Origin: a virus
DNA: 34,031 bases
Strand: one strand, 5' to 3'
IMG/VR virus record: IMGVR_UViG_3300020195_000870
Coordinates: 1-34,031 of that record
A model generated the notes under the pieces. The model worked only from the letters and a program-made list of their open reading frames with translations. It made no database searches and was not told the DNA's origin. The translations under genes were made by a program, and so were the position numbers. Below, in pieces: positions 6,857 to 29,016 of this stretch (position 1 is the stretch's first letter; every line of letters begins with the position of its first letter).

Positions 6857-7187
6857 TCCGAATCGTCCCGCTTCCCAGAATAAGTACACAGAGCAGAACA
6901 TGGGTAACACCTCTTTTGATGAGGTCTTCGGTGTTAATACCTTTGAACCGTTAGGTTTTGATGGCAAACAACTCCAACGTTTCCGTGCTGATGCAACAGC
7001 TATCAAAATCACGACCGTGGGTGCCGTTACTTACCTAGCGGTTGCTGCACCCGGAACTAGCCAAAGCACCCCACTTTGGCAATGCCGCAAGATCGACGAG
7101 ACTACCGGCTTTGAACTGACTTTCGCTGATGGCGACGCTAACTTCAACAATATAGCCACTGACTTAACCAGCCTCACGTACCAATGA
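6849..7187 (+). CDS. Putative virion decoration or accessory protein
   Basis: A 112-aa protein with a strong Shine-Dalgarno (AAGGAGAT at 6838-6845) before ATG 6849; it overlaps the previous gene by 8 nt. A short polar N-terminus is followed by beta-rich sequence (ATAIKITTVGAVTYLAVAAPGTS, then FELTFADGDANFNNI). The size, beta character and place after the capsid fit a decoration protein, but no family is recognised. It is the last gene before the sugar island and overlaps it by ATGA. Confidence 0.65.
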   Translation: MADPNRPASQNKYTEQNMGNTSFDEVFGVNTFEPLGFDGKQLQRFRADATAIKITTVGAVTYLAVAAPGTSQSTPLWQCRKIDETTGFELTFADGDANFNNIATDLTSLTYQ

Positions 7188-7951
7188 CTACAGCAATAAT
7201 TGGCAGTGAAGGATGGGTTGGAAAATCCATGGTGAAACTGTTCCCTGATTCCGTTTGCTATGACACTAATGGCAAGACTGCATCTGACCAAGAGAAAGTT
7301 AACAAGTGTGACGTAGCTTTTATTTGTGTACCAACTCCTAATCCAAAAAATAAACTCTTAGATACCTCAATTGTCGAATCTTGTATCAGATGGTGTGAAT
7401 GCCCACTGATCGTGGTTCGATCTACTATCAACCCTGGCGACTGTGACCGATGGAGTGGTGAATTTGGTAAACGAATTGTATTTCAACCTGAATACTTAGG
7501 AGAAACTCCCAGCCATCCACTGATCGATCCAAGGACTAGACCATTCCTGGTTATAGGTGGAGAACGAGAAGATCGTCGTAAGCTGATTGAGCTGTATACC
7601 ACTGTCTATAACGCAAATGTGACTATTCGTCAGGTATCTAGTTTAGAGGCTGAAGTTATTAAACTCTCTGAGAATAGAGCAATTGCATTTAAAGTGGCCG
7701 AGTGCCAAGAGCTGTATGATGCCTGCGAAACCGCTGGAATCGATTACTACGCCATTCGCGATGCGGTATACGGGGATGATCCACGGTTCAACCTTTATTG
7801 GACCTTCATCTTTCCGGGTAAGCGTGGGATGAATTCTAAGTGTATACCCAAGGACGTTTACGCATGGGCTGCTTGGGCTGAATCGCTTGGTCACGAGCCC
7901 GATATCACCAACGGCATCTTAGAGAGGAATAAGCAATGGTTAGCGCAGTAA
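7184..7951 (+). CDS. Nucleotide-sugar dehydrogenase, UDP-glucose/GDP-mannose type, short form
   Basis: Members of this family oxidise C6 of a nucleotide sugar to a uronic acid using NAD. Visible motifs in order: GSEGWVG (7-13, dinucleotide loop), CVPTP (48-52), RSTINPG (79-85), PEYLGE (102-107), VIKLSEN (158-164, catalytic Lys/Asn region) and SKCIPKD (218-224) with the nucleophile at Cys220. At 255 aa it is far shorter than the usual 400-450 aa; the C-terminal sugar-nucleotide-binding domain is missing. The catalytic residues are kept, so it may be active on an unusual substrate or need a partner. The start overlaps the upstream stop (ATGA). Confidence 0.85.
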   Translation: MTTAIIGSEGWVGKSMVKLFPDSVCYDTNGKTASDQEKVNKCDVAFICVPTPNPKNKLLDTSIVESCIRWCECPLIVVRSTINPGDCDRWSGEFGKRIVFQPEYLGETPSHPLIDPRTRPFLVIGGEREDRRKLIELYTTVYNANVTIRQVSSLEAEVIKLSENRAIAFKVAECQELYDACETAGIDYYAIRDAVYGDDPRFNLYWTFIFPGKRGMNSKCIPKDVYAWAAWAESLGHEPDITNGILERNKQWLAQ

Positions 7952-8811
7952 TTCCATCCCGTAATGAGCCCTTTTTGCAGCAGACGATAGACGAGTTATT
8001 GTTAAGAGCCACCGGTGAGATCGAGATCGTTGTGGTGCTTGATGGCTATTGGCCTGATCCGAAACTAAAAGACGATCCACGGGTGGTTTTGGTTCATAGA
8101 GGAGTATCCAGAGGGATGAGAGCAGCAATTAATGCAGGTGTGGCAGTGGCCAAAGGTGACTATATTTTAAAAATAGATGCACACTGTATGGTGGGTGATG
8201 GCTTTGATCAAATCTTAGCTGATAATTGCGAAGATGATTGGGTGGTTGTTCCGACACGTCACCGCTTAGATCCGTATAACTGGGTTGTCAAAGACGATGG
8301 CCGAGCACCAATTAACTATATGTACCTATCATATCCAAATGATCCTAACGATTGGGGTGGTGCTGGTCTACATGGTCGGATTTGGGACGAGAATAATAAA
8401 TGCTCCGATCTTAAGAAGCTGGAGATTGATGACCTACTTTCTTCACAGGGATCGTGTTGGTTTATGAAGAAAACATATTTCGACTATCTAGAGTTGATGG
8501 ATGAGGAGAACTTCGGTACTTTTGCTCAGGAATTCCAAGAGATCAGCTTTAAAGCCTGGCTGTCTGGCGGCAGGGTAGTGGTGAATAAGAAGACTTGGTA
8601 CGCACATTGGCATAAGGGCAAAGATCCAGAGGGGAAGAACGTTCGGAACTATTTTATCGACACTAGAGATCTGAAAAAGGCTAATGAATATACCAATCGC
8701 TGGCTATCTGAGAAGGTTTGGCATAAGCAGATTCACGATATGAAGTGGTTAATCGAAAAGTTCTGGCCGGTTCCGGGTTGGCCGGAGGATAGGGAGCTAT
8801 GGAAGATTTAG
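7936..8811 (+). CDS. GT-A glycosyltransferase with DxH motif (GT2 / polypeptide GalNAc-transferase-like)
   Basis: A 291-aa enzyme. The N-terminus SAVIPSRNEPFLQQTIDELL and IVVVLDG (31-37) are the GT2-fold nucleotide-binding start. GVSRGMRAAINAGVAVAKGDY leads to ILKIDAHC (77-84), a DxH metal motif as in the polypeptide GalNAc-transferase group (GT27). Farther on, [33 protein letters not shown] and WYAHW follow the order of that group's acceptor region (Trp-x-x-GG ... H). It is a paralogue of the first domain of the gene at 9385. Transfer of a sugar to Ser/Thr of a protein is an inference; a plain GT2 role is the alternative. Confidence 0.82.
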   Translation: MVSAVIPSRNEPFLQQTIDELLLRATGEIEIVVVLDGYWPDPKLKDDPRVVLVHRGVSRGMRAAINAGVAVAKGDYILKIDAHCMVGDGFDQILADNCEDDWVVVPTRHRLDPYNWVVKDDGRAPINYMYLSYPNDPNDWGGAGLHGRIWDENNKCSDLKKLEIDDLLSSQGSCWFMKKTYFDYLELMDEENFGTFAQEFQEISFKAWLSGGRVVVNKKTWYAHWHKGKDPEGKNVRNYFIDTRDLKKANEYTNRWLSEKVWHKQIHDMKWLIEKFWPVPGWPEDRELWKI

Positions 8812-9401
8812 TCATCTACATTGAAGCATGTATCAACGCCCCGGGTCGCGTGGAGATCCCCGATGGTAATCGGGTAGATTTGGCTAGGTTGTTCGGCGAA
8901 CTAGGTTTCAGGACTGGAGCTGAGGTTGGCGTAGAGAAGGGCAAATACTCAGAGGTGCTATGTCAGAAGAATCCTGGAGTCAAACTCTATGCCATCGACG
9001 CTTGGCAGACATTCCCGGTCTATCGAGATCACGTCACTAATGAGGAGCTGGAATATTTTAGGGCTGAGACTGTCACAAGATTAGCTCCGTACGGCTGCAT
9101 AGTTATTAAAGGTCTGAGCACTGAAGTCGCTACTAGATTTGATGATGAATCTCTCGACTTTGTATATATCGATGGTGGGCATGACTTTGCCAATGTTGCG
9201 AGTGATCTATCTGCTTGGAACAAAAAGGTCAGACCTGGTGGGGTCGTCTCTGGTCACGATTATACCAAGAAGCCCGGATCTGGTGCGCTTAACGAAGTCG
9301 TCGAGGTAGTTGATGCTTGGATGAAGGCAAAGAATATCCATCCCTGGTTTGTACTGAAAGGAGACAGGTCTAATTCCTGGTTTTATGTCAAAACTGTTTG
9401 A
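8799..9401 (+). CDS. Class I SAM-dependent methyltransferase
   Basis: A 200-aa Rossmann-fold methyltransferase of the Methyltransf_24 type. GAEVGVEKGKYSEVL (about 40-54) is motif I, with YAIDAW just after it as the acidic motif II. DESLDFVYIDGGHDFANVASDL carries the characteristic DGGH, followed by VRPGGVVSGHDY. Members are often found in polysaccharide and glycopeptide clusters, methylating sugars or lipids. Here it is wedged with overlaps between two related glycosyltransferases, which suggests a glycan as substrate. GGAGGATAGGGAG upstream of ATG 8799 provides the ribosome site. Confidence 0.85.
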   Translation: MEDLVIYIEACINAPGRVEIPDGNRVDLARLFGELGFRTGAEVGVEKGKYSEVLCQKNPGVKLYAIDAWQTFPVYRDHVTNEELEYFRAETVTRLAPYGCIVIKGLSTEVATRFDDESLDFVYIDGGHDFANVASDLSAWNKKVRPGGVVSGHDYTKKPGSGALNEVVEVVDAWMKAKNIHPWFVLKGDRSNSWFYVKTV

Positions 9402-10944
9402 TCTCTCTATCTTAATTCCAGCACGAAACGAGATGTTTCTACAACGTACGATTGAAGATATCCTTGCACATATTGAGGGCAAAACTGAGATTATCGTTGT
9501 CTTAGATGGTCAGTGGCCAGAGCCTGGTCTACCCCAATATGACAATGTAACTATTATCTATAACGACGTTTCTATCGGGCAACGGGCAGCAACTAATCAG
9601 GCGGCTAGACTTTCAACAGCAAAGTACGTTATGAAGGTTGATGCACATTGTGCTTTTGACCAAGGCTTTGACGTTAAGATGATGTCGAAGATGCAGGATG
9701 ACTGGACAATGGTTCCAACCATGCGTAACCTGCACGTTTTTGACTGGGTCTGTGAGCAATGCGGCGATACTAGATATCAAGGACCTACTCCAACATTTTG
9801 TCTCAATTGTGATAACACTGACAAATTTAAGATGGATGTAGTTTGGATTGCCAAGCGCTCACCACAGAGCAGCTTCTTTAGATTTGACCACACTTTGCAC
9901 TTTCAATATTGGAATGACTTAGGTAAACGGGAAGAGAACAGGGGCGAGATAGCCGAAACCATGTCCATTCAAGGCTCCTGTTTTATGATGACTCGAGAGA
10001 AGTACTGGGAGTTGGATGTCTGTGATGAAGCGCATGGTAGCTGGGGACAACAGGGAGTTGAAGTGGCTTGCAAGACCTGGTTATCGGGGGGCCGAGTGGT
10101 TGTTAATAAATTAACTTGGTATGCCCACATGTTCAGGACTCAGGGTGGGGACTTTGGCTTCCCTTATCCACTATCTAATACCGAAGTGGAGAAAGCCCGC
10201 CAATACTCCCGTGATCTATTCATCGGTAACAACTGGCCAAAGGCAATCCATAATCTGCAATGGCTAATCGATAAGTTTAATCCGCCGGATTGGGTCAGTA
10301 CTAAACAGAATAAGGGCATTATTTACTACACCGACAACCAACTAAACCTCAAGATTGCTCATAAGGTCCAGAAGCAGCTTCTCACGATTGGTTTACCGAT
10401 TGTTAGCGCCTCACTCAAGCCGATGCCTCATTTTGGCCAGAATATCCATTTGCCATTAAAACGAGGCTATTTAGCTATGTTTAAGCAGATACTGGCAGCG
10501 CTAGAAGCCTCGACCGCTGAGATCATCTATTTTTGTGAACATGACGTCATCTATCACCCCTCCCACTTCGACTTTACTCCTCCCACTAAAGATAAGTTTT
10601 ATTACAACGAGAACTTTTGGAAGGTTCGAATAGAAGATGGTCATGCAGTCCATTATGACGCTAAACAAGTTAGTGGTTTGGTTGCGTATAGAGAACTATT
10701 AATAAAAGAGTATCGCAAGCGAGTGACTGATGTAGAGCGAGATGGATATGACCGACGGACCGGCTTTGAACCGGGGACTCACGACGATCGAGCTGTACGG
10801 TACTTCTCCGAACAACCAAACGTTGATATTAGACATGACCACAACTTAACCAAGAACCGTTGGTCAGAAGATCTATTTCGAAACAAACCTGTTAATTGGA
10901 TTGAAGCTGACGAAGTACCAGGCTGGGGAAGGATAACGATCTAA
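9385..10944 (+). CDS. Two-domain glycosyltransferase: DxH GT-A domain with zinc ribbon, plus second domain
   Basis: A 519-aa protein. Domain 1 (about 1-295) is a paralogue of the gene at 7936: [32 protein letters not shown] (84-89, DxH), [15 protein letters not shown], then [18 protein letters not shown] (219-236) and TWYAHMFR, close in pattern to polypeptide GalNAc-transferases. Inserted at 123-142 is CEQC-x12-CLNC, a four-cysteine zinc ribbon absent from the sister gene. Domain 2 (about 308-519) starts [20 protein letters not shown] and has [13 protein letters not shown] (380-392), which looks like another GT-A-type catalytic loop. Its start overlaps the methyltransferase and its stop overlaps the Ser-repeat gene (TAATG). 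Confidence 0.8.
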
Positions 10945-13900
10945 TGGCACGACTTTGGTCCTCAGGTTTTGAATTACAATCGGTTGTGTCCGCTGTTGAG
11001 GTCGACGTTATTTCTGGTTCACCAACCATTAGTACTGCGACCAAGCGTAGTGGTTCGGCATCATTTCGAGTTAATCCATCTGCAACAACTGCTCACGCTC
11101 GTCATGCACTTGCCGGGTCAGCGATAATTTCAACCACCCTTTTTGCTCGTTTCTATCTGTACATCACGACCTCTACCGGTGCTCTAGCTACGATTTTTAG
11201 ATTTAGTAATGGAACAACCGACAGATGTTCCATTCGTCTTAATAGTGATCGGACACTAGAACTTTGGAATTCTTCGGTTCAGCTCGGAAGCGATAGTACC
11301 GCCTTAAATACTTCTACCTGGTATTGTATTGAGGCTAAATTGATTCTCGATGGAATTGGTCTTGGTACAACCTTTGAAGGGAAAATTGATGGTACTGTTT
11401 TTGCTACCGGTACAAGCCAAAGTATCGGCTCGGTTGAAAGCATTATGCTTGGAGCCGTTACGACACAGACTTCGGACCTTTATTTTGATGATGTTGCCGT
11501 TAATGACAGTTCCGGTTCTTTTGAGAATACTTATGCTGGTGCAGGATCGATTCTTCACCTTAAACCGAATGATACGGGTGATGCTAATGAATTAGGGGCT
11601 GGAACGTCTACAAATTATAATCTTGTTGATGAGGTAACGCCAGATGATGCGACTACCCAGATTGCCACAACTTCCGATGCGGCGGCTGAAAAAGATAGTT
11701 ATAAGATCGAAGATACCCCAGCCGCTATTAATTCGGGTGACACTATCAAAGTAGTCTCGGTTGGTGGGAGATTTAAGCGATCATCAAATAATACCTCTGA
11801 TACGGTTGTATTAACGGTTAAATCTACTACTGGAGGAACAATTGAAGATAGTTCGAATATTCAACCCAATAGCAATGTCACTTGGCGTACCAATGCCAAT
11901 GCAACGCCACGGCTGTATCCACTCACTATCTATGATTTGCCTGGAGGCTCAACTACTGTTTGGACCAAAGCGGACCTAGATACTGCCGAGATTGGTTTTC
12001 GAAAAACCGTCGACTCGACTGCCGGGGTCGAAATGTCGACTATTTGGATGTTGGTGGAATATGCCGCCGCAGCAGCAGGAAGCCCCAGCGCTTCAGTAAG
12101 CCCTTCAAGCTCGATTTCAGCCTCTAGAAGTCCTAGTGCATCTGTATCACCTAGCTCAAGTGTTTCCCTGAGCCAATCCCCCAGCGCCAGCGTTAGCCTG
12201 AGTCAGTCACCATCAGCGTCAGTATCACCCTCTGCTAGTGTTAGTCCGTCATCATCGGTTAGTGCATCTCAATCACCATCAGCCTCTACATCACCATCCG
12301 CCAGCGTGTCACCTTCCATTAGTCCTTCGAGCTCTATATCACCAAGCTCGAGCTCTTCACCGAGTGTTTCACCATCAGCGTCTACATCACCCTCGGCCTC
12401 GATCTCCCCAAGCTCTAGTATTTCTGCTTCTCAATCTCCGTCTGCATCTATAAGCCCAAGTTCTTCAGTTTCACCGAGTCAGTCCCCATCCGCTTCTATA
12501 TCTCCTAGTGCATCTATATCTCCATCAAGCTCTAGTAGCGCGAGTGTGAGTCCATCAGCGTCCATTAGTCCTTCAAGTTCTTCAAGCCCATCTATATCGC
12601 CAAGCTCATCTACAAGCCCCTCTGCTAGTCGAAGTCCAAGCGCGAGTGAAAGTCCATCACAATCACCTTCCGCGTCTATAAGCCCTTCGAGCTCTATAAG
12701 TTCATCTATATCACCAAGCGCCTCAGTTTCCCCAAGCGCGAGTGTATCTCCATCCTCTTCTTCCTCAGCTAGCCAAAGTCCATCTGCAAGTCGAAGCCCT
12801 TCAGCTTCGGTATCTCCTTCAATCTCCCCGTCTGCAAGCCAAAGCCCGAGTTCATCTATATCTTCTTCTCAATCTCCGTCCGCTTCCATAAGTCCATCTT
12901 CAAGCGTAAGCCCCTCAATTTCACCAAGTGCCAGCATATCTCCATCAGCCAGCGTGTCACCTTCGGTGTCCCCATCAGCCTCGGTTTCTCCATCAAGCAG
13001 CAGCAGTTCTTCAGTTTCCCCAAGCGCCTCTGTAAGCCCCTCCGCTTCAGTTTCCCCTTCTTCAAGTATAAGTGCTAGCCAGTCCCCAAGCGCGAGTATC
13101 AGCCCTAGCGCCTCAATATCTCCATCCATCAGCCCCTCTGCTAGTCGAAGTCCAAGCGCCAGCGTTTCCCCTAGCATCTCGCCATCAGCGTCTGTTTCCC
13201 CAAGCGCGAGTATCAGCGCCTCAATTAGTCCATCAGCCAGCATCAGCCCCTCTTCTTCAGTTTCCCCGTCTTCATCTAGTAGCCCTAGTATCTCACCATC
13301 AGCGTCTGTGAGTCCGTCAGCATCCGTGTCAGCTAGTGTTAGTCCGTCAGCCAGTATTTCACCGAGTTCTAGTATAAGTTCATCTATATCCCCAAGCGCC
13401 TCAGTTTCCCCAAGCGCTTCAATTAGTCCAAGCTCGTCCTCATCCTTAAGCGTTTCCCCGAGCGCTTCCATTAGTCCTTCGGCAAGTGTGTCTCCATCGG
13501 TCTCACCTTCTGCTTCGATCAGTCCAAGTGCTAGCTCAAGCTCTTCAATCTCCCCTAGCGCATCAATCTCGCCTAGCGCATCAATATCCCCTAGCGCATC
13601 AACATCGTCCTCTATTAGTCCTAGCGCTTCAATTTCACCCTCTTCGTCATCTTCCTCGTCGAATAGTCCTTCTGCCTCTCTATCACCATCTGCGTCCATC
13701 TCTCCATCGGCTTCGGTTAGTGCATCTACATCACCATCAGCCTCTACATCACCATCCGCCAGCGCATCTTTGTCTATTTCGCCTTCGTCAAGCGTAAGTT
13801 CCTCAGTATCGCCCTCGTCTTCAGCATCTCCTTCAGTTGGCACTTCTCCTTCAGCCTCAGTTAGTCCGAGTTCTTCCGAATCGGCATCTATTTCACCAAG

Positions 13901-14144
13901 CTCAAGCTTGTCAGCTAGTGTTAGTCCCTCGGCTAGTATTTCACCCAGCTCGAGTAGCTCTCTGAGTCAATCCCCGTCTGCTAGTCGAAGTCCAAGCGCT
14001 TCTCTGAGCCCAAGCGCCAGCAGGTCTCCAAGTGCGAGTACTAGTCCAAGCCCTTCACCACCACCGGGATTCGGTTTAATCTTCATTGTTAATAGAGGCA
14101 GATTCGCTAAGTGGATCAGCAACAATAAATACTGGGAAATTTAG
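10944..14144 (+). CDS. Giant Ser-X repeat (mucin-like) protein with lectin-like N-terminus
   Basis: A 1066-aa protein. Residues about 1-200 have the character of a concanavalin/LamG jelly roll ([35 protein letters not shown]). Residues about 205-375 form a second beta-rich domain ending in [14 protein letters not shown]. From about 380 to 1040, Ser sits at almost every second position: [20 protein letters not shown] and variants, with X from P, A, S, V, I, Q, R, T, E and L. One clear slip of the pattern is at [10 protein letters not shown]. The end is [28 protein letters not shown]. It is probably a virion fibre or surface stalk, and Ser density plus neighbouring glycosyltransferases suggest heavy O-glycosylation. 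Both points are inferences. Confidence 0.8.
12080..14070 (+). repeat. Degenerate (Ser-X)n coding repeat, 6-nt base period
   Basis: About 2 kb in which Ser codons alternate with other codons. An 18-nt (six-residue, SPSASI-like) super-unit is often visible, for example three tandem near-copies around 13558-13610. Both TCN and AGY Ser codons are used freely, so the protein pattern is kept while the DNA is varied. That points to selection on the protein rather than a recent slippage expansion. Confidence 0.9.
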
Positions 14145-14255: not shown

Positions 14256-15029
14256 ATGGAGTATATTACAGGCGCATCAGGATTTTTAGGGACACATCTA
14301 ATCTCACGGTTAGCTAATCCAACCAAACTCCCTCATTCCGACATTTCTACCACCAAGATTCAACCATTCGATCGCTTCTTCTTCCTCTCGGCATATGGCA
14401 ATATGGCTTTTCATAATGAAGACAACAAAATCGTCCAGGCCAACATCACAGACTTAACATCAGTACTAGATCAGGTTGATTTTAAAAAAGGTTTTAAGTC
14501 TTTTGTTTACGTTTCCTCATCCTCAGTCAGACTCAAGCGTCAAACTATGTACTCCCACACCAAACGAGCAGCGGAAGAGATCCTTATTGGTTATATGGAA
14601 AAGCATAATGTCCCTATCTGTATTGTCCGACCATATTCAATCACTGGAGTGGGGGAGCAAAAAGAGCATCTAATACCAACCTTAATACGATCATGCATGA
14701 CTGGCGAAAATGTCAACCTAGTACCCAACCCTGTTCACGATTGGATCGATGTTGATGATGTAGCTGAGGGGATTGTTAATCTCTCAACTCATGGCGCACG
14801 AGGAATCTTCGAGTTAGGGACAGGGACTGGAGTATCTAATATTCAGGTCGTTAAGGTGGTCGAAGAAGTCACTGGTAAGAAGGCCAATATAAATATAGTA
14901 GGTCAGATGCGCGATTATGACAACGAAGATTGGATTTCAGGCAATTTTAGAGCTCGTAGCTATGGCTGGTTGCCTAAGAAGAAGTTAGCTGACTCGGTCA
15001 AAGAAATGGTGGCAGCATATGGAAATTAG
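14256..15029 (+). CDS. NAD-dependent nucleotide-sugar epimerase/dehydratase (extended SDR)
   Basis: A 257-aa extended short-chain dehydrogenase. TGASGFLG (5-12) is the NAD-binding glycine motif. VYVSSSSV (84-91) gives the catalytic Ser, and YSHTK (99-103) the Tyr-x-x-x-Lys pair. RPYSITGVGE and HDWIDVDDVAEGIVNL are usual for sugar epimerases. At 257 aa it is shorter than the common 310-340 aa; the N-terminal Rossmann part is reduced after the first helix (PTKLPHSDI region). It probably makes a modified sugar donor for the neighbouring transferases. It overlaps the transketolase gene by 11 nt. Confidence 0.87.
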   Translation: MEYITGASGFLGTHLISRLANPTKLPHSDISTTKIQPFDRFFFLSAYGNMAFHNEDNKIVQANITDLTSVLDQVDFKKGFKSFVYVSSSSVRLKRQTMYSHTKRAAEEILIGYMEKHNVPICIVRPYSITGVGEQKEHLIPTLIRSCMTGENVNLVPNPVHDWIDVDDVAEGIVNLSTHGARGIFELGTGTGVSNIQVVKVVEEVTGKKANINIVGQMRDYDNEDWISGNFRARSYGWLPKKKLADSVKEMVAAYGN

Positions 15030-15675
15030 AGACGCTTTGCGAATCAATAAACTTGAGCGACGGATCATTGATATCGCCTACAAGAAGCAGCTATCACACC
15101 TGTCTAGTTGTCTGACTGCCGTTCGATTAATCGACAACATTTACAAGATTAAAAAGGATGATGAACCCTTCGTTTTGGATAACGGTCACGCAGCACTGGC
15201 TCTATATGTTGTGTTGGAGAAGATGTATTTTAACGATGCTGAGGCACTATTTGAGAAGCATGGTGTACATCCAAACCGAGATGTGGATGACCGAATTTGG
15301 GCATCTACTGGCTCTTTGGGGCAGGGTCTACCGATTGCTGCTGGGATGGCTCTAGCCGACAGATCAAAGCCAGTTTATGTCCTAACTTCAGATGGCGCAA
15401 TGGCTGAGGGTTCTAATTGGGAAGCTCTACGTATTGCAGGTGAGCAACGACTAGAGAACTTACGAATCACGGTTAATGCTAATGGTACGGGAGCATATGG
15501 CAAGGTTGAGACTGATCTATTAGAAGCTCGCATGCAGTACTTTTATCCATCACTAGTTATCTCGACCAATATGTACAGCTATCCCGATTACCTCCAGGGG
15601 CTAGACGGTCACTATCACACCCTAACCGAAGACCAGTATCAAGATATTGTCAGGAGGTCCGATGCAACGACATGA
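15019..15675 (+). CDS. Transketolase-like protein, N-terminal (ThDP pyrophosphate) subunit
   Basis: A 218-aa protein matching the N-terminal half of split transketolases. LSSCLTAVRLIDNIYKI and LDNGHAALALYVVLE correspond to the early substrate-side segment. STGSLGQGLPIAAGMALA follows, then LTSDGAMAEGSNWEALRIA ... NANG (about 127-157), the thiamine-diphosphate/metal motif with GDG changed to SDG. Usual N-subunits are about 270 aa, so it is trimmed. It overlaps the C-subunit gene, suggesting an equimolar complex. It probably moves a two-carbon ketol unit in making an unusual sugar; the substrate is unknown. Confidence 0.85.
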   Translation: MEIRDALRINKLERRIIDIAYKKQLSHLSSCLTAVRLIDNIYKIKKDDEPFVLDNGHAALALYVVLEKMYFNDAEALFEKHGVHPNRDVDDRIWASTGSLGQGLPIAAGMALADRSKPVYVLTSDGAMAEGSNWEALRIAGEQRLENLRITVNANGTGAYGKVETDLLEARMQYFYPSLVISTNMYSYPDYLQGLDGHYHTLTEDQYQDIVRRSDATT

Positions 15676-16156
15676 GTCCCAGCGCGGATACTTCGCGCAC
15701 GCGTTATATGAATCAATGAAAGAGAACGAGGACATCTTCCTACTGGTTGGCGATCTTGGGTATAAGGTTTTTGATCAGCACTTCGAAGACTTTCCTGGTC
15801 GATGTGTTAATACTGGCGCTAGTGAACAAGCAATGATCGGCATTGCAGTCGGTTTAGCTTTAAAGGGAAAGATTCCATTTGCCTATTCAATAACCAACTT
15901 CCTACTCCGCCGACCGTACGAAACTCTCAAGCTTTATGCCGATGAAGAACAGATCGCGATTAAGTTGGTTGGTTCAGGTCGGGATAAAGATTATGCCCAC
16001 GACGGTCCCAGCCATGATGCTACCGAGGCTAAACAACTTTTAGCCACACTCCCTAATGTTAATCAGTATTGGCCAGATGAAAAAGAAGAAGTAACAGCCA
16101 TGGTTAAAGCGATGGTTGATAGTAAGAAACCCGACTTTATCTCACTAAAACGATAA
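15662..16156 (+). CDS. Transketolase-like protein, pyrimidine-domain subunit (short)
   Basis: A 164-aa partner of the upstream gene. ATG 15662 is preceded by a perfect AGGAGG (15652-15657); the TTG at 15647 lies before that site and is rejected. RGYFAHALYESMKENEDIFLLVGDLG opens the pyrimidine-binding domain. NTGASEQAMIGIAVGLAL (about 58-75) carries the Glu that activates thiamine diphosphate. Split transketolase C-subunits are usually about 300 aa because a regulatory C-terminal domain follows. Here the protein stops after the pyrimidine domain (KKPDFISLKR), giving a minimal enzyme. Confidence 0.85.
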   Translation: MQRHESQRGYFAHALYESMKENEDIFLLVGDLGYKVFDQHFEDFPGRCVNTGASEQAMIGIAVGLALKGKIPFAYSITNFLLRRPYETLKLYADEEQIAIKLVGSGRDKDYAHDGPSHDATEAKQLLATLPNVNQYWPDEKEEVTAMVKAMVDSKKPDFISLKR

Positions 16157-16168
16157 AGGAGGTGAAAT

Positions 16169-16894
16169 ATGAAAGATCAAAAAGAAAACAATAAAGAGGT
16201 TGGGCTAGGCGCGCTATTCTATCCGACTTCGGATACATTCGGCAAAGAGGTGCCTTTTGAGAGCTTGTTTATCCCTTATATCTATAAGGAAATCGAGTTT
16301 GAAGGAGTCTATATCGATATATTAAATCAACAAAAAGATATGGTCATTATGGACGTTGGCGCCAATATTGGTATCACTGTCGATCACTTCCGCAAACACG
16401 CAAAAAAGGTTTACGCACTCGAACCGTCTCCGGAGCATTTCGCCGCTTTGGCTAAGAATAAGGAGTTTAATCACTGGGATAACGTTGAGTTGTTCGAAGT
16501 AGCGCTTTCGGATCGAGTTGGAGAAACTACCCTCGCTCAGAATGATGGCAACCGCACCATGAATTCAATCATGGTAGATAATCCTCGGCCGGACGGTTCG
16601 GGGCCACGCAGCAGCCAATATGTTAACCGAGTCACGGTTAAGACTATCGACTTCGAGACGTTCTTCAAAGAGAACAATATCGATAAAGTAGATTTCGTTA
16701 AGTTTGATGTTGAAGCAGCAGACGATTTAATTCTACGTTCAGAAGGCTTTAAGAATGTGGCTGACAAGATTCAAGCAATCGAAGTCGAGTTCCACTATCC
16801 AGATTGGATGGACCTAGTTGAGTACCTGCGTTCATTAGGGTTTACCCCAAGAAGGTATGAGGCCAGCGCAATCATTGTGCTGTTTTCGAGGTGA
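16169..16894 (+). CDS. FkbM-family methyltransferase
   Basis: A 241-aa SAM-dependent methyltransferase. VIMDVGANIGITVDHFRKHA (59-78) is motif I, and VYALEPSPEHFAAL the following acidic strand. VKTIDFETFFKENNIDKVDFVKFDVEAAD is the hallmark FkbM segment (usually DxEG, here DVEA). A helix and strand (IEVEFHY) close the fold. Family members methylate hydroxyl groups on sugars and natural products. A strong Shine-Dalgarno, AAAGGAGGTGAAAT, sits before the ATG. The stop overlaps the next start as GTGA. Confidence 0.88.
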   Translation: MKDQKENNKEVGLGALFYPTSDTFGKEVPFESLFIPYIYKEIEFEGVYIDILNQQKDMVIMDVGANIGITVDHFRKHAKKVYALEPSPEHFAALAKNKEFNHWDNVELFEVALSDRVGETTLAQNDGNRTMNSIMVDNPRPDGSGPRSSQYVNRVTVKTIDFETFFKENNIDKVDFVKFDVEAADDLILRSEGFKNVADKIQAIEVEFHYPDWMDLVEYLRSLGFTPRRYEASAIIVLFSR

Positions 16895-17625
16895 AAAAAT
16901 GTTGTTTCACGGCAGTAGATGACAAACTCTTTTATCCGGAGGGAACGCACATAATGATTAACTCATTTAAGCGCTTCCATCCGGATATTGATTTGATTGT
17001 GTTTCGACAAGACACGATCGATAAGCTCTTTAAGGAAAAGAATATTAATTGGTATCAGGCTAAGCCTTACCTAGCTGAGTTGTTAATGGATGATTACGAT
17101 TTGGTGGTCAATATGGATGCGGATCATGTAATCACAGGTCGAATGACTGAGGTCTTTGATAACGTCGATTATGAGGTTGGTTTGCCTTGGAACTTTAATG
17201 ATTACGAGAACGCTAGCTTTGAGAACATCACGGAGAAGATGTATTTGCAAGCAGGGATGGTAGCTTCGACTAGTAAGGAATTTTGGTTAAAGTGGCAGAT
17301 TATGAATAGAGAAGCGATGGAATACTTAAGAAAAGAAAACGATATTGTGAATCTGGTCATCTATAACTTGATGCCTGAGTTAAAGCTGAAGATCTTCGAT
17401 AAGGAAAAAGACTATTACGGCTGTAAAGCACTAGGTCGAGAGCCCGAGTTCTATATCGAGGATGACAAACTAATGTGTCGAAATGAACAGGTCAAAGCCT
17501 ATCACTTTGCCCGTGGTGGACTATTCCCTAAATTAAACTTCGACACGATGCCACTGGTTGATCCGGTAAAAAATTGGTTGAAAAACCTTAGCTATGGTCA
17601 AAGCATAAAGGTGGTAGGGCTATGA
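16891..17625 (+). CDS. GT-A glycosyltransferase (GT8/nucleotide-diphospho-sugar type)
   Basis: A 244-aa protein starting at GTG 16891 in a GTGA overlap. The N-terminus CCFTAVDDKLF and MINSFKRFHPDIDLIVF resemble the opening of GT8-like enzymes. YDLVVNMDADHV (69-80) gives the metal-binding DxD (Asp76, Asp78). LQAGMVASTSKEFWLKWQ and the late CRNEQVKAYHFARGGLFPKL fit the acceptor and second metal-ligand regions. It probably adds a sugar to the glycan built by the cluster. Family assignment is approximate. Confidence 0.75.
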   Translation: MKKCCFTAVDDKLFYPEGTHIMINSFKRFHPDIDLIVFRQDTIDKLFKEKNINWYQAKPYLAELLMDDYDLVVNMDADHVITGRMTEVFDNVDYEVGLPWNFNDYENASFENITEKMYLQAGMVASTSKEFWLKWQIMNREAMEYLRKENDIVNLVIYNLMPELKLKIFDKEKDYYGCKALGREPEFYIEDDKLMCRNEQVKAYHFARGGLFPKLNFDTMPLVDPVKNWLKNLSYGQSIKVVGL

Positions 17626-18398
17626 GCCACAAACCATACACCATCTATGCTCCTGACTTCCAAGTCACCTCTGGTGGTATCCGCGTCATGTGGGGTCTCT
17701 ACGGTGCTTTATTAGCTAAAGGTCAGATTGCCTATATTAATGCGATTACTCGCGGTATAGACTCAGTCGCTATTTACCCCGAGATTGCTCACGGTAATCC
17801 ACTCGAAGGAACAAAAGTTGTGCGCTACATTTTAAATAAACCAGGGGTAATGGGTAGAGGCACCCCCGGGCGGAGTTTTGAGGCTGGACCAACTGACTTT
17901 GATCCGACGGATAGTCTGTATTATTTCTCGAAGCTATTTAGTGATGGCTCAGAAGCGAACAATTATATGTTCTTGCCTATTCTTGATACACATCTATTTA
18001 AAGATCAGGGTAGAACTCGCGATAAGATCGCTTTTTTTGTGGGTAAGGGTGAGGATACTAAGGCTCATCCACAGGGTTCAGTTCTAATTGATAGGGGGTT
18101 TGCTCAGGATCAGCAAGCGTTGGCAGACTTGCTAAACGAGTGCAAGGTCCTGTACTGCTATGACCCTGTGACTGCTATGACCGAGATTGCTCGACTCTGT
18201 GGTTGCAGGGTCGTAATGATAAATCCTGTTTATTCCAAAGAGGCTTGGTCGCAGTACGAGGCAGGTATGAATGGTATCTCATGGGGTGTAGATGAAGGAA
18301 TAGAGCTCGATGCGGAGGTATTCGCTGCTCACTATGCACGGATGAAAGTGCATTTTGATGAATGTTTGGACCAGTTTATCGAGGAGACCCAACGATGA
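17622..18398 (+). CDS. Putative GT-B glycosyltransferase
   Basis: A 258-aa protein in an ATGA overlap with the previous gene. YTIYAPDFQVTSGGIRVMWGLYGALLAKG looks like the N-terminal Rossmann strand and glycine loop of GT-B enzymes. KIAFFVGKGEDTK, VLYCYDPVTAMTEIARLCGCRVVMINP and the late helical region resemble the C-terminal nucleotide-sugar domain. The segment LNECKVLYCYDPVTAMTEIARLCG corresponds to the donor-site helix. It is shorter than most GT-B enzymes (350+ aa), so it may be a reduced form. The substrate is not predictable. Confidence 0.68.
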   Translation: MSHKPYTIYAPDFQVTSGGIRVMWGLYGALLAKGQIAYINAITRGIDSVAIYPEIAHGNPLEGTKVVRYILNKPGVMGRGTPGRSFEAGPTDFDPTDSLYYFSKLFSDGSEANNYMFLPILDTHLFKDQGRTRDKIAFFVGKGEDTKAHPQGSVLIDRGFAQDQQALADLLNECKVLYCYDPVTAMTEIARLCGCRVVMINPVYSKEAWSQYEAGMNGISWGVDEGIELDAEVFAAHYARMKVHFDECLDQFIEETQR

Positions 18399-18428
18399 GT
18401 AATTCGAAGATCTGATGGCAATACTGAC

Positions 18429-19520
18429 ATGAAAACAATAAAAGTCTTTGTTTTACCATCACATCAGACCAAAGAGCGCACCTCTGGAGTAGATTTTGCC
18501 CGAATTATCCAACCGATGAAGCATTTAGATGGATATACAGACGGAGAAGTAACTTTTAAGGTCGATTTATTCGATATTCACAGTACAAAGTCGTTGGATT
18601 GGTTACAAGTTGCCAAAAAATATGACATCATCTATCTAAACTACATTAATGACCCTTGGGGATATGCGGCAATGGGCGCGATGGCCCGTAAACACGGCGC
18701 CAAACTGGTTTTTGATATCGATGATAGCCTCTGGAACGTCAAAGATGACAACCCAGCCCACGGCGTATACCACAAGGGTAGCGAGGCGATTGGGAATTTT
18801 ACTAGTATCTGTAACGATGTTGATTATATGACCACGACTAGTGATTACCTCAAGCACGTTATTATGAATAACACCAAGAAGAAAGCGACTCAGATTAAAG
18901 TATTTCCAAATTATGTTGATCTAGATCTCTACAAGTATCGCGCACCCTTTGAGAAGAACTCAGAGATCACCTTAATGCACTTCGGCTCAACGACTCACCA
19001 AAACGACTTATCGGACGATGAGTTCAAAAAGGGTATCGACCGTATATTTTCTGAGTATCCGAACATTAAGTTAAAGATGGTTGGGGCTTTTTTACCTAAG
19101 TTCAAGACTCGTTGGGGCCAGCGATACCAGAACGCCTATGGCCATAGTGATATTTATAGATGGATTAGCGACAAATTCCCTGAGTTTATGGCCGAAGCCG
19201 ATATTTTGGTTGTCCCATTAACTGATGACATCTATAACCGCTGCAAATCATCGATTAAGTTCGTAGAGTCAGCCTCAGCTAAGATCCCGGGCGTATGGCA
19301 GGATATTCGTCAGTACCAAGAGGTGATTGAGCCTGGTAAGAACGGCTATTTAGCTAAAGACGCCAAAGACTGGTACAACGGCATTAAGGCTTTGATAGAT
19401 GACGCCGAGCACCGCAAGAGTGTGGGCGAGGCGGCACTTAAGACGGTAAAAGATAAATGGACAATTCAAGCTCATGTTAAGGATTATGCACAGTTCTTTA
19501 AAGATATACTCCTTCCTTAA
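18429..19520 (+). CDS. GT4-family glycosyltransferase (GT-B)
   Basis: A 363-aa protein of normal GT4 length. The N-domain has VFVLPSHQTKERTSGVDFARIIQPM and YDIIYLNYINDPWG. KLVFDIDDSLWNVKDDN is the DIDD segment seen in many phage and capsule GT4 enzymes. The C-domain begins near ITLMHFGSTTHQNDL. FMAEADILVVPLTDDIYNRCKSSIKFVESAS carries the donor-binding Lys/Glu region (EX7E-like position). GKNGYLAKDAKDWYNGIKALIDD closes the fold. It is the last gene of the island; a short unexplained gap (18399-18428) precedes it. Confidence 0.85.
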   Translation: MKTIKVFVLPSHQTKERTSGVDFARIIQPMKHLDGYTDGEVTFKVDLFDIHSTKSLDWLQVAKKYDIIYLNYINDPWGYAAMGAMARKHGAKLVFDIDDSLWNVKDDNPAHGVYHKGSEAIGNFTSICNDVDYMTTTSDYLKHVIMNNTKKKATQIKVFPNYVDLDLYKYRAPFEKNSEITLMHFGSTTHQNDLSDDEFKKGIDRIFSEYPNIKLKMVGAFLPKFKTRWGQRYQNAYGHSDIYRWISDKFPEFMAEADILVVPLTDDIYNRCKSSIKFVESASAKIPGVWQDIRQYQEVIEPGKNGYLAKDAKDWYNGIKALIDDAEHRKSVGEAALKTVKDKWTIQAHVKDYAQFFKDILLP

Positions 19521-27574: not shown

Positions 27575-28333
27575 ATGCCAGCTTTAAATACAGATAAATT
27601 TAAAAAACTAAGCAGAAGATGGGTCGGACAAATAGGCGCCGGTGGTGTTGCTGATTCAGTAACCACTACGGTTCCATTGTCTTCGGCTACTAATCTAGCA
27701 ACTGACACAGCAGTCTTAGCGACTATCGATCGGGTAGACGTTAACGGCGTGGCTACCCCAACCCTGGAAGAGACGGTGATTGGTGTGGTATCGGGCTCAA
27801 GTCTTGTCAGCTGTGTTCGAGGTTCAGAAGGAACAGCTCAAGCGCACAACGCAGGGGCAGTGGTCGAAATATTGGTCACCTCTAAAGGCTACAACGACAT
27901 CGTTGATGGAGTTCTGGTTGAACATAACCAAGATGGTACTCATAAGACTCCGGTCGTAACTTTAACAGGGACTCAAACCCTGACCAATAAGACGCTCACT
28001 AAGCCCACTCTTAACGGCTCCGTCCAGGCAGTCACCGCGGATACCGATGCGGCGACTATTACCTTCAGTATGGCAGCCAGCAACTACCACACCGTCACTC
28101 TGGGCGGCAACAGAACGCTGGCCGTTTCCAACGTCTCCACCGGCCAACCCTTCATCCTGCGATTGCTTCAGGACGGCACCGGCTCACGGACTGTGACTTG
28201 GTTCGCCACCATTAAATGGGCAGGCGGTGTTGCTCCTACCTTGACCACCACCGCCTCAAAAGCGGACGTGTTTGGGCTCGTCTGTACGGGCTCGAACACC
28301 TACGACGGCTTTGTGGTTGGACAAAACCTGTAA
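27575..28333 (+). CDS. Putative tail fibre / virion surface protein
   Basis: A 252-aa protein with Shine-Dalgarno GGGAGGT. LNTDKFKKLSRRWVGQIGAGG is probably the virion-attachment end. The motif TLTGTQTLTNKTLTKPTLNG at about 130-150 is a common fibre element. The C-terminal part (SNYHTVTLGGNRTLAVSNVSTGQPFILRLLQDGTGSRTVTWF) is a beta domain frequent in phage fibre and adhesion proteins. The DNA is markedly richer in G+C from about 28010 onward than in the first half, which suggests the C-terminal domain was exchanged. Confidence 0.7.
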   Translation: MPALNTDKFKKLSRRWVGQIGAGGVADSVTTTVPLSSATNLATDTAVLATIDRVDVNGVATPTLEETVIGVVSGSSLVSCVRGSEGTAQAHNAGAVVEILVTSKGYNDIVDGVLVEHNQDGTHKTPVVTLTGTQTLTNKTLTKPTLNGSVQAVTADTDAATITFSMAASNYHTVTLGGNRTLAVSNVSTGQPFILRLLQDGTGSRTVTWFATIKWAGGVAPTLTTTASKADVFGLVCTGSNTYDGFVVGQNL

Positions 28334-28335
28334 CC

Positions 28336-29016
28336 ATGCCAAATACCAACTCACTCTCATTAAACGGCACATCTGACTATCTCAATGACGCCGACAATTA
28401 CTGGAAACCAACAGATTTTACGCTGGAATGTTGGATAAAGAAAACCGCACTGTCGGCGAATAGTCGGCCCATTTCTCTGGTCAATGCCGATGTCGATTTT
28501 ACGACGGGTACTAATGGAAAAATTCGCCTGGAAATCCGACACGGCGGGGGGATTGAATCAATTGACTCAACTGGTACTTATAGCACCGGTGTCTGGACTC
28601 ATATCGCTACGACCTACAAGAGTGGCACAAAAGCCTATGTTTTCTACATCAACGGTGCTGACGCTGGTTCAGGAACATCAACCAATACGTTGGCCTACCA
28701 AGGTTTAACCGACTACGGCATTCAGATCGGGGCTCGTGGCGGACCATCCAACTATTTTGACGGCAAGATTGACGATGTACGGCTATGGAGTGTCGTGCGA
28801 ACAAGTGGCGAGATTGCAGCCAACTATCAACGTCAGCTAACCGGCACTGAAACTGATCTCTACGCGTATTGGAAACTAAACGAAGGCTCCGGCACAACGC
28901 CCCAAGATTCGACCATGAATAATTACGATCTTGGGTTTGTCAGTAGCCCGAGCTGGTCAACGGATGTGCCTTTTATTGATCCCGAAGGGGGAGCATTCTT
29001 GCTGAATTTTATATGA
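28336..29016 (+). CDS. LamG/concanavalin-like lectin virion protein
   Basis: A 226-aa single jelly-roll domain. LSLNGTSDYLNDADN, FTLECWIKKTALSANSRPI, GVWTHIATTYKSGTKAYVFYINGADAG, YFDGKIDDVRLWSVVRTSGEIAANYQRQLTG and LYAYWKLNEGSG follow the LamG/Laminin_G_3 order completely. Such domains bind glycans, so a receptor-binding role is likely. The end DPEGGAFLLNFI is short and hydrophobic. ATG 28336 is chosen because the frame upstream overlaps the fibre gene; no Shine-Dalgarno is seen. It overlaps the next gene as ATGA. Confidence 0.85.
   Translation: MPNTNSLSLNGTSDYLNDADNYWKPTDFTLECWIKKTALSANSRPISLVNADVDFTTGTNGKIRLEIRHGGGIESIDSTGTYSTGVWTHIATTYKSGTKAYVFYINGADAGSGTSTNTLAYQGLTDYGIQIGARGGPSNYFDGKIDDVRLWSVVRTSGEIAANYQRQLTGTETDLYAYWKLNEGSGTTPQDSTMNNYDLGFVSSPSWSTDVPFIDPEGGAFLLNFI

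Follow-up and report, generated by a model that had tools for sequence, protein, structure and literature searches.

Results

The virus record IMGVR_UViG_3300020195_000870 (positions 1 to 34,031, analyzed at this full length and called the window below) carries a gene for a protein in which serine alternates with other residues over a long central block. This (Ser-X)n open reading frame (ORF, 10944-14144, + strand) is intact, starts with ATG and encodes 1066 amino acids (aa) in three parts: an N-terminal region (aa 1-379, 10944..12080), with a predicted concanavalin-A-like jelly roll in aa 1-200 and then a second beta domain; a (Ser-X)n stalk of 660 residues (aa 380-1039, 12081..14060); and a C-terminal tail of 27 aa followed by the stop codon (14061..14144). 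Two putative glycosyltransferase (GT) genes with PF00535 matches lie upstream on the same strand: GT2a (7936..8811), a single-domain enzyme resembling N-acetylgalactosamine (GalNAc)-transferases, and GT2b (9385..10944), in which a similar catalytic domain (aa 1-308) is joined to a C-terminal domain (aa 309-519). The GT2b stop overlaps the start of the (Ser-X)n ORF.

The serine periodicity is nearly perfect. The block contains 373 Ser, of which 329 occupy one phase and fill 329 of the 330 alternate positions, giving a best single-phase score of 0.997, compared with a maximum of 0.645 among 2000 composition-preserving shuffles. The initial annotation, made from the letters alone, had described Ser at nearly every second position over about 660 residues, and the count gives exactly 660; the occasional "slip" it mentioned, however, is really a Ser-to-Gly substitution at aa 966, which is the sole exception, and the register is constant throughout. 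The most frequent X residues are Pro (100), Ala (71), Ser (44), Ile (42) and Val (37), followed by Gln, Leu, Thr, Arg, Glu and Asn. Two further points of that annotation were confirmed: both ends of the protein differ from the repeat, and the two Ser codon classes are mixed (233 TCN, 140 AGY), with all six codons present. An antisense ORF at 12869-13843 was rejected as a mechanical by-product of the repeat.

Selection on the serine positions

Codon identity at equal residues within the block equals that of synonymous shuffles at nearly all lags, except for a weak signal at a 6-residue lag (z 2.3) and one 35-nt exact repeat. The memory of the repeat is largely gone from the DNA and is kept in the protein. 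Comparison of two related viral contigs, L026 and L101, shows 81 synonymous changes, including two switches between TCN and AGY, but no nonsynonymous change at 451 Ser sites, versus 67 synonymous and 34 nonsynonymous changes at X sites. Summed by hand over ten closely related (Ser-X)n gene pairs, one of which partly overlaps another, the totals are 187 synonymous to 1 nonsynonymous (Ser to Thr) at Ser positions and 141 to 76 at X positions (Fisher p about 7e-23). Across 132 distinct runs, the Ser positions hold 99.5% Ser, a figure biased upwards because run selection itself favors Ser, and 0.19% Thr. Because the codons are random-like while synonymous changes outnumber nonsynonymous ones 187:1 at Ser positions, we conclude that the (Ser-X)n protein pattern is under strong selection, in line with the earlier proposal that the protein pattern is selected while the DNA diversifies.

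A degenerate-pattern scan of viral contigs recovered at least 119 (Ser-X)n stretches. A (Ser-X)n ORF is present in 98 loci, on many unrelated proteins, as a tail, linker or insert (0 of 120 random control loci have one), and several contigs carry two or three such ORFs each. These data bear directly on the possibility that the block is a neutral low-complexity expansion. Such repeats can arise by slippage, and the sister locus L260 still shows a unit of 16 residues, but the lack of codon memory, the extreme purifying selection at Ser and the recurrence in unrelated proteins all stand against a neutral origin; the contrast between synonymous and nonsynonymous changes and the codon tests refute it, and we give it virtually no likelihood.

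Several layouts recur among these runs. At L003:8836-9729, a second (Ser-X)n protein lies beside the first, and its run sits in the middle of a small virion-like domain, with a conserved half on either side; L057 and L123 have the same split-domain layout. A protein of ∼535 aa in L272, L273, L275, L277, L278, L283, L295, L296 and L304 carries a near-constant run of 64-70 aa near its N-terminus. The related contigs L026, L046, L101, L110, L135 and L136 have runs of up to 1062 aa, with Phe and Tyr at X; no GT2 was found in L026 (9.2 kb), the one contig of this group tested.

Relatives of the terminal regions

The description of the N-terminus as lectin-like is borne out by the predicted structure. 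The AF2 model of this region (pLDDT 82, pTM 0.85) contains the jelly roll, and aa 1-201 align with TtX122, Cip1 and glucuronan lyase at a VIA Z of about 19. The 379 aa match PHROG_14065 (E 3.3e-70), a family of unknown function, and neither Pfam nor NCBIfam gives an above-cut-off name for the region. Homologues are found in gp11/gp13 of Hiyaavirus (Streptomyces phages), beside head and head-tail genes; gp11 of Galactica, which has no (Ser-X)n, is annotated "minor tail protein" and lies between the major capsid and head-tail genes.

Viral relatives of the N-terminal domain carry (Ser-X)n in L002, L003 and L004, other repeats in L006 and L009, and no repeat in L007, L011 and L013. At L006:6001-8451 and L009:6001-7695, the domain precedes Ala-rich ATATLAA or NSERSAKLTG repeats, indicating that the type of stalk is exchangeable. 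The initial annotation had held that loss of the alternating pattern in relatives would count against it: the pattern is kept in L003, L004 and L260 and is absent from some N-domain relatives. Relatives lacking (Ser-X)n also lack the GT2a/b family.

Short tails similar to the C-terminal 27 aa stand behind (Ser-X)n in L052, L260, L324 and L325. Because these look-alikes persist even where the N-terminal domain differs, the tail may be an anchor. A second class of tails, with tandem YTDKY(S/T) motifs, is found behind (Ser-X)n in many loci (e.g. L278, L296, L273).

The glycosyltransferases resemble polypeptide GalNAc-transferases

By sequence, and for GT2b also by its modeled fold, both GTs are closest to polypeptide GalNAc-transferases, the initiators of mucin O-glycosylation. 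This similarity was predicted from the DAHC motif ahead of the searches, and single-sequence searches against solved structures gave mostly GalNAc-transferases. Profile matches to polypeptide GalNAc-transferase have E values of 2.2e-13 for GT2a, over the whole catalytic domain, directly after which the protein ends, and 1.5e-8 for GT2b. In the GT2b model (pLDDT 86), the top 29 rows from VIA are all GalNAc-transferases (Z 22.6-25.9, 254-265 residues, 2.5-3.2 Å), with the next family at 19.1, and Foldseek likewise places GalNAc-transferases closest. The residues of the DxH metal motif and a downstream His, aligned to those of GalNAc-transferases, are invariant in GT2b (D86, A87, H88; H248) and in GT2a (D81, H83; H224). 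The C-terminal domain of GT2b is modeled as alpha/beta and gave no match in Pfam and no sequence match among solved structures.

Linkage between glycosyltransferases and (Ser-X)n

PF00535 is found above cut-off in 36 of 49 (Ser-X)n contigs and in 2 of 50 random contigs (p 1e-13). Generic GT2 presence was nevertheless rejected as too loose a measure of linkage: 5 of 12 N-domain relatives without (Ser-X)n also show a GT2 above cut-off. The GT2a profile, which also catches GT2b, matches 34 of the 49 (Ser-X)n contigs (34/36 of those with a GT2, 0/13 of those without), and none of the 50 random contigs or the 12 N-domain relatives. The C-terminal domain of GT2b gives a similar picture (32/49, 0/50 and 0/12) and, as far as these sequence comparisons go, is specific to (Ser-X)n viruses. 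The expectation that the serine-rich protein comes with glycosyltransferases was thus upheld by the GT2a/b family (34/49 versus 0/50).

The reverse search, starting from GT2b, leads to the same association: 39 of 47 viral loci contain (Ser-X)n, most of the other 8 are incomplete, and GT2b is directly followed by a (Ser-X)n ORF in 19 of 27 loci. Of 64 GT2b loci, 61 also give a GT2a-like match, although in a locus with no separate GT2a gene this match can be GT2b itself. Two further genes of the window recur in these 64 loci, a class I methyltransferase (Methyltransf_24; 8799..9401, + strand) in 49 and a nucleotide-sugar dehydrogenase (UDP-Glc/GDP-Man type; 7184..7951, + strand) in 23.

Presence and absence within one phage lineage

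For loci related to the window through its capsid and portal proteins, we compared the slot held by these genes, counting loci that span it. The relatives share a common gene order up to g6434/g6849 and again from an epimerase onward. The slot contains GT2a, GT2b and (Ser-X)n in four loci (the window, L324, L325 and L334), and all three are absent from seven (L323, L332, L335, L339, L349, L350 and L353), with no mixed case (Fisher p 0.003). All seven retain the downstream epimerase-transketolase genes. This co-presence and co-absence, while the other sugar genes stay, argues that GT2a and GT2b serve (Ser-X)n specifically. In place of the cassette, L349 has a tail-spike-like protein, L353 a tail-fibre-like protein and L339 a LamG protein; slot contents in the remaining loci lacking (Ser-X)n gave no clear match. 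The (Ser-X)n gene of the window and its relatives lies in the late structural block, in this same slot used by spike- and fibre-like proteins. The replacements, together with the co-loss, argue that the slot encodes an adhesion appendage.

The retained genes belong to a second sugar block (14256..19520, + strand), comprising the epimerase, a split transketolase, an FkbM methyltransferase, two unassigned ORFs and a GT4. This block probably has a separate function, because it stays in relatives that lack (Ser-X)n and GT2a/b. The transketolase is split into two ORFs (15019-16156), which are kept with the epimerase, FkbM methyltransferase and GT4 in those relatives. Elsewhere in the window, a separate LamG lectin-like protein (28216-29016; PF13385, E 6.6e-26) overlaps the 3' end of a tail-fibre-like ORF (27575-28333).

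These observations also bear on the possibility that (Ser-X)n is an unmodified spacer, flexible or extended, between adhesin domains, and that GT2a and GT2b glycosylate something other than the stalk, for example the capsid or the surface of the host. Some phage GTs do act on other targets (PMC12619734), and (Ser-X)n occurs both in contigs without GT2 and, in L263, as a linker between beta domains. An inert spacer, however, needs no Ser in preference to Gly, Thr or Asn, which is difficult to reconcile with abundant synonymous and almost no nonsynonymous change; the GTs resemble protein-modifying enzymes, and within one lineage they are present or absent together with (Ser-X)n, whereas the other sugar genes are kept. 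We consider the spacer explanation unlikely.

Link to Patescibacteria

GT2b matches nine cellular contigs; the eight that are named to group are all Patescibacteria (Woesebacteria, Andersenbacteria, Microgenomatus and other Patescibacteria), and the remaining one bears just the title "bacterium". Neither GT2a nor GT2b has a match among 50,697 isolated phage records. Among 286 sampled Patescibacteria genomes, four contain the GT2b C-terminal domain, and one of these four is the only genome with a (Ser-X)n run by the strict pattern, which misses known cases such as L314. Judged from the company its genes keep, the window virus probably infects ultra-small Patescibacteria.

Cellular copies of the cassette raise another explanation: a host-surface glycoprotein system, in which the protein would be shown on the infected Patescibacteria cell, altering attachment or blocking superinfection. 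L313 and L314 (the latter within a 744-kb contig) carry GT and (Ser-X)n cassettes with a chromosomal look and no evident phage genes, and lectin and O-antigen sugar genes of Patescibacteriota phages have been read as helping host adhesion (PMC12911398). Yet the Patescibacteria contig L308 reads, by eye, as a phage contig, with (Ser-X)n followed by apparent head-tail and tape-measure genes. The gene's place in the late structural block, the "minor tail protein" annotation of an N-domain relative and the absence of an evident signal peptide or LPXTG motif from the (Ser-X)n protein sequence also speak against surface display, and we regard it as very unlikely. The cassettes of L313 and L314 are possibly mobile or ex-viral. 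Both (L313:665-18310, L314:838-20818) are flanked on each side by similar REP-type transposase-like ORFs, and TatC- and UppS-like genes lie near the one in L314.

Discussion

We consider it likely that the product of ORF 10944-14144 is an adhesion appendage on the virion of a tailed Patescibacteria virus, with a serine stalk that is O-glycosylated by the co-encoded GT27-like enzymes. In this model, the appendage would consist of the lectin-like beta domain, the 660-residue stalk and the short anchor-like tail, and the neighboring GT2a and GT2b would place O-linked sugars on the stalk serines. The alternating Ser would line up hydroxyl acceptors densely and regularly, the X residues (Pro, Ala, Val, Ile) would keep the chain extended and accessible, and O-glycosylation would make the stalk stiff, protease-resistant and mucin-like. 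The data presented here demonstrate the repeat, the selection on it, its linkage to and co-loss with the GTs, the homology and fold of the enzymes and the connection to Patescibacteria; we infer Ser as the acceptor, the sugar used, the occupancy of the sites, the virion location and the physical role.

Several observations weigh against this model. GT2 is absent from 13 of the 49 (Ser-X)n contigs, some of them longer than 30 kb, and in these the stalk would be either free of sugar or dependent on enzymes of the host; some of the 49 are near-duplicates. Animal GalNAc-transferases generally prefer Thr, yet Thr is almost absent from the Ser positions (the 0.19% given above). A C-terminal ricin-type lectin domain is usual, though not universal, in GT27, and this domain of the animal enzymes is absent from GT2a and GT2b. 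Finally, the Glu of the WGGEN motif is present in GT2a (E199, invariant) and is Gln in GT2b (Q223, invariant). Because of this difference GT2a appears to be the better candidate initiator, and GT2b could have a role in binding or extension, or take a different donor.

It is instructive to compare the viral genes with known systems. They resemble the GT27 GalNAc-transferases and mucins of animals and Apicomplexa in the GT-A catalytic domain, the DxH motif, the downstream His and the best hidden Markov model and fold match, and in an acceptor-like protein rich in Ser, Pro, Ala and Val. In contrast to that system, the viral genes adjoin their likely substrate, lack the ricin lectin domain, include an extra C-terminal domain and a Gln for the GGE Glu in GT2b, and would act on acceptors that are almost only Ser and strictly alternating. 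The bacterial serine-rich repeat (SRR) adhesins (GspB, Fap1, PsrP) also place a long serine-rich stalk after a binding domain and have GT genes beside it, and their SXSX-type long repeat is present in ORF 10944-14144. SRR adhesins use GtfA/GtfB as the first GT pair and SecA2/SecY2 for export, whereas the GTs beside (Ser-X)n are GalNAc-transferase-like PF00535 enzymes; the LPXTG anchor of SRR adhesins is absent from the 27-aa tail. The resemblance to SRR adhesins drawn in the initial annotation therefore holds as an analogy and is not supported as membership, given these GTs, the lack of an LPXTG-type anchor and X residues that are Pro, Ala, Val or Ile rather than the Asp of staphylococcal repeats.

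Staphylococcal Ser-Asp repeat proteins (PMC3794999) likewise have Ser at every second position and dedicated GTs, SdgA/SdgB, which glycosylate them; there X is Asp, versus Pro, Ala, Val or Ile here, and the carrier is a cell-wall protein rather than the product of a phage gene. In mycobacteriophages, phage structural proteins are again the reported glycan carriers, with glycans on the C-termini of capsid and tail-tube subunits rather than on a dedicated serine stalk (Freeman et al. 2023, cited in PMC12619734). The Hiyaavirus gp11/gp13 proteins share the homologous N-terminal domain and the virion gene region, unlike in that Galactica gp11 has no (Ser-X)n. By analogy, the viral protein may work like SRR or Ser-Asp repeat glycoproteins and animal mucins, and membership in none of these is established. 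Our literature searches found no report of such a viral system combining a serine stalk with GalNAc-transferase-like enzymes.

We tentatively advance a broader idea, which we hold to be possible rather than probable: that Patescibacteria viruses encode a self-contained mucin system of stalks and GalNAc-transferase-type enzymes that initiate O-glycosylation in the bacterial cytoplasm, a prokaryotic-virus counterpart of animal mucin-type O-glycosylation, possibly related to it by descent. A testable enzyme-substrate pair is available in the GT genes, which are short, and a peptide as simple as SPSASVSP. If the proposal is correct, phages of uncultured, ultra-small bacteria would coat their own adhesins in sugar, using enzymes of a type regarded as characteristic of animal mucins. 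Such a system would be relevant to the evolutionary origin of mucin-type O-glycosylation, to host finding or evasion by these phages and to tools that add O-linked sugars to designed serine repeats in bacteria.

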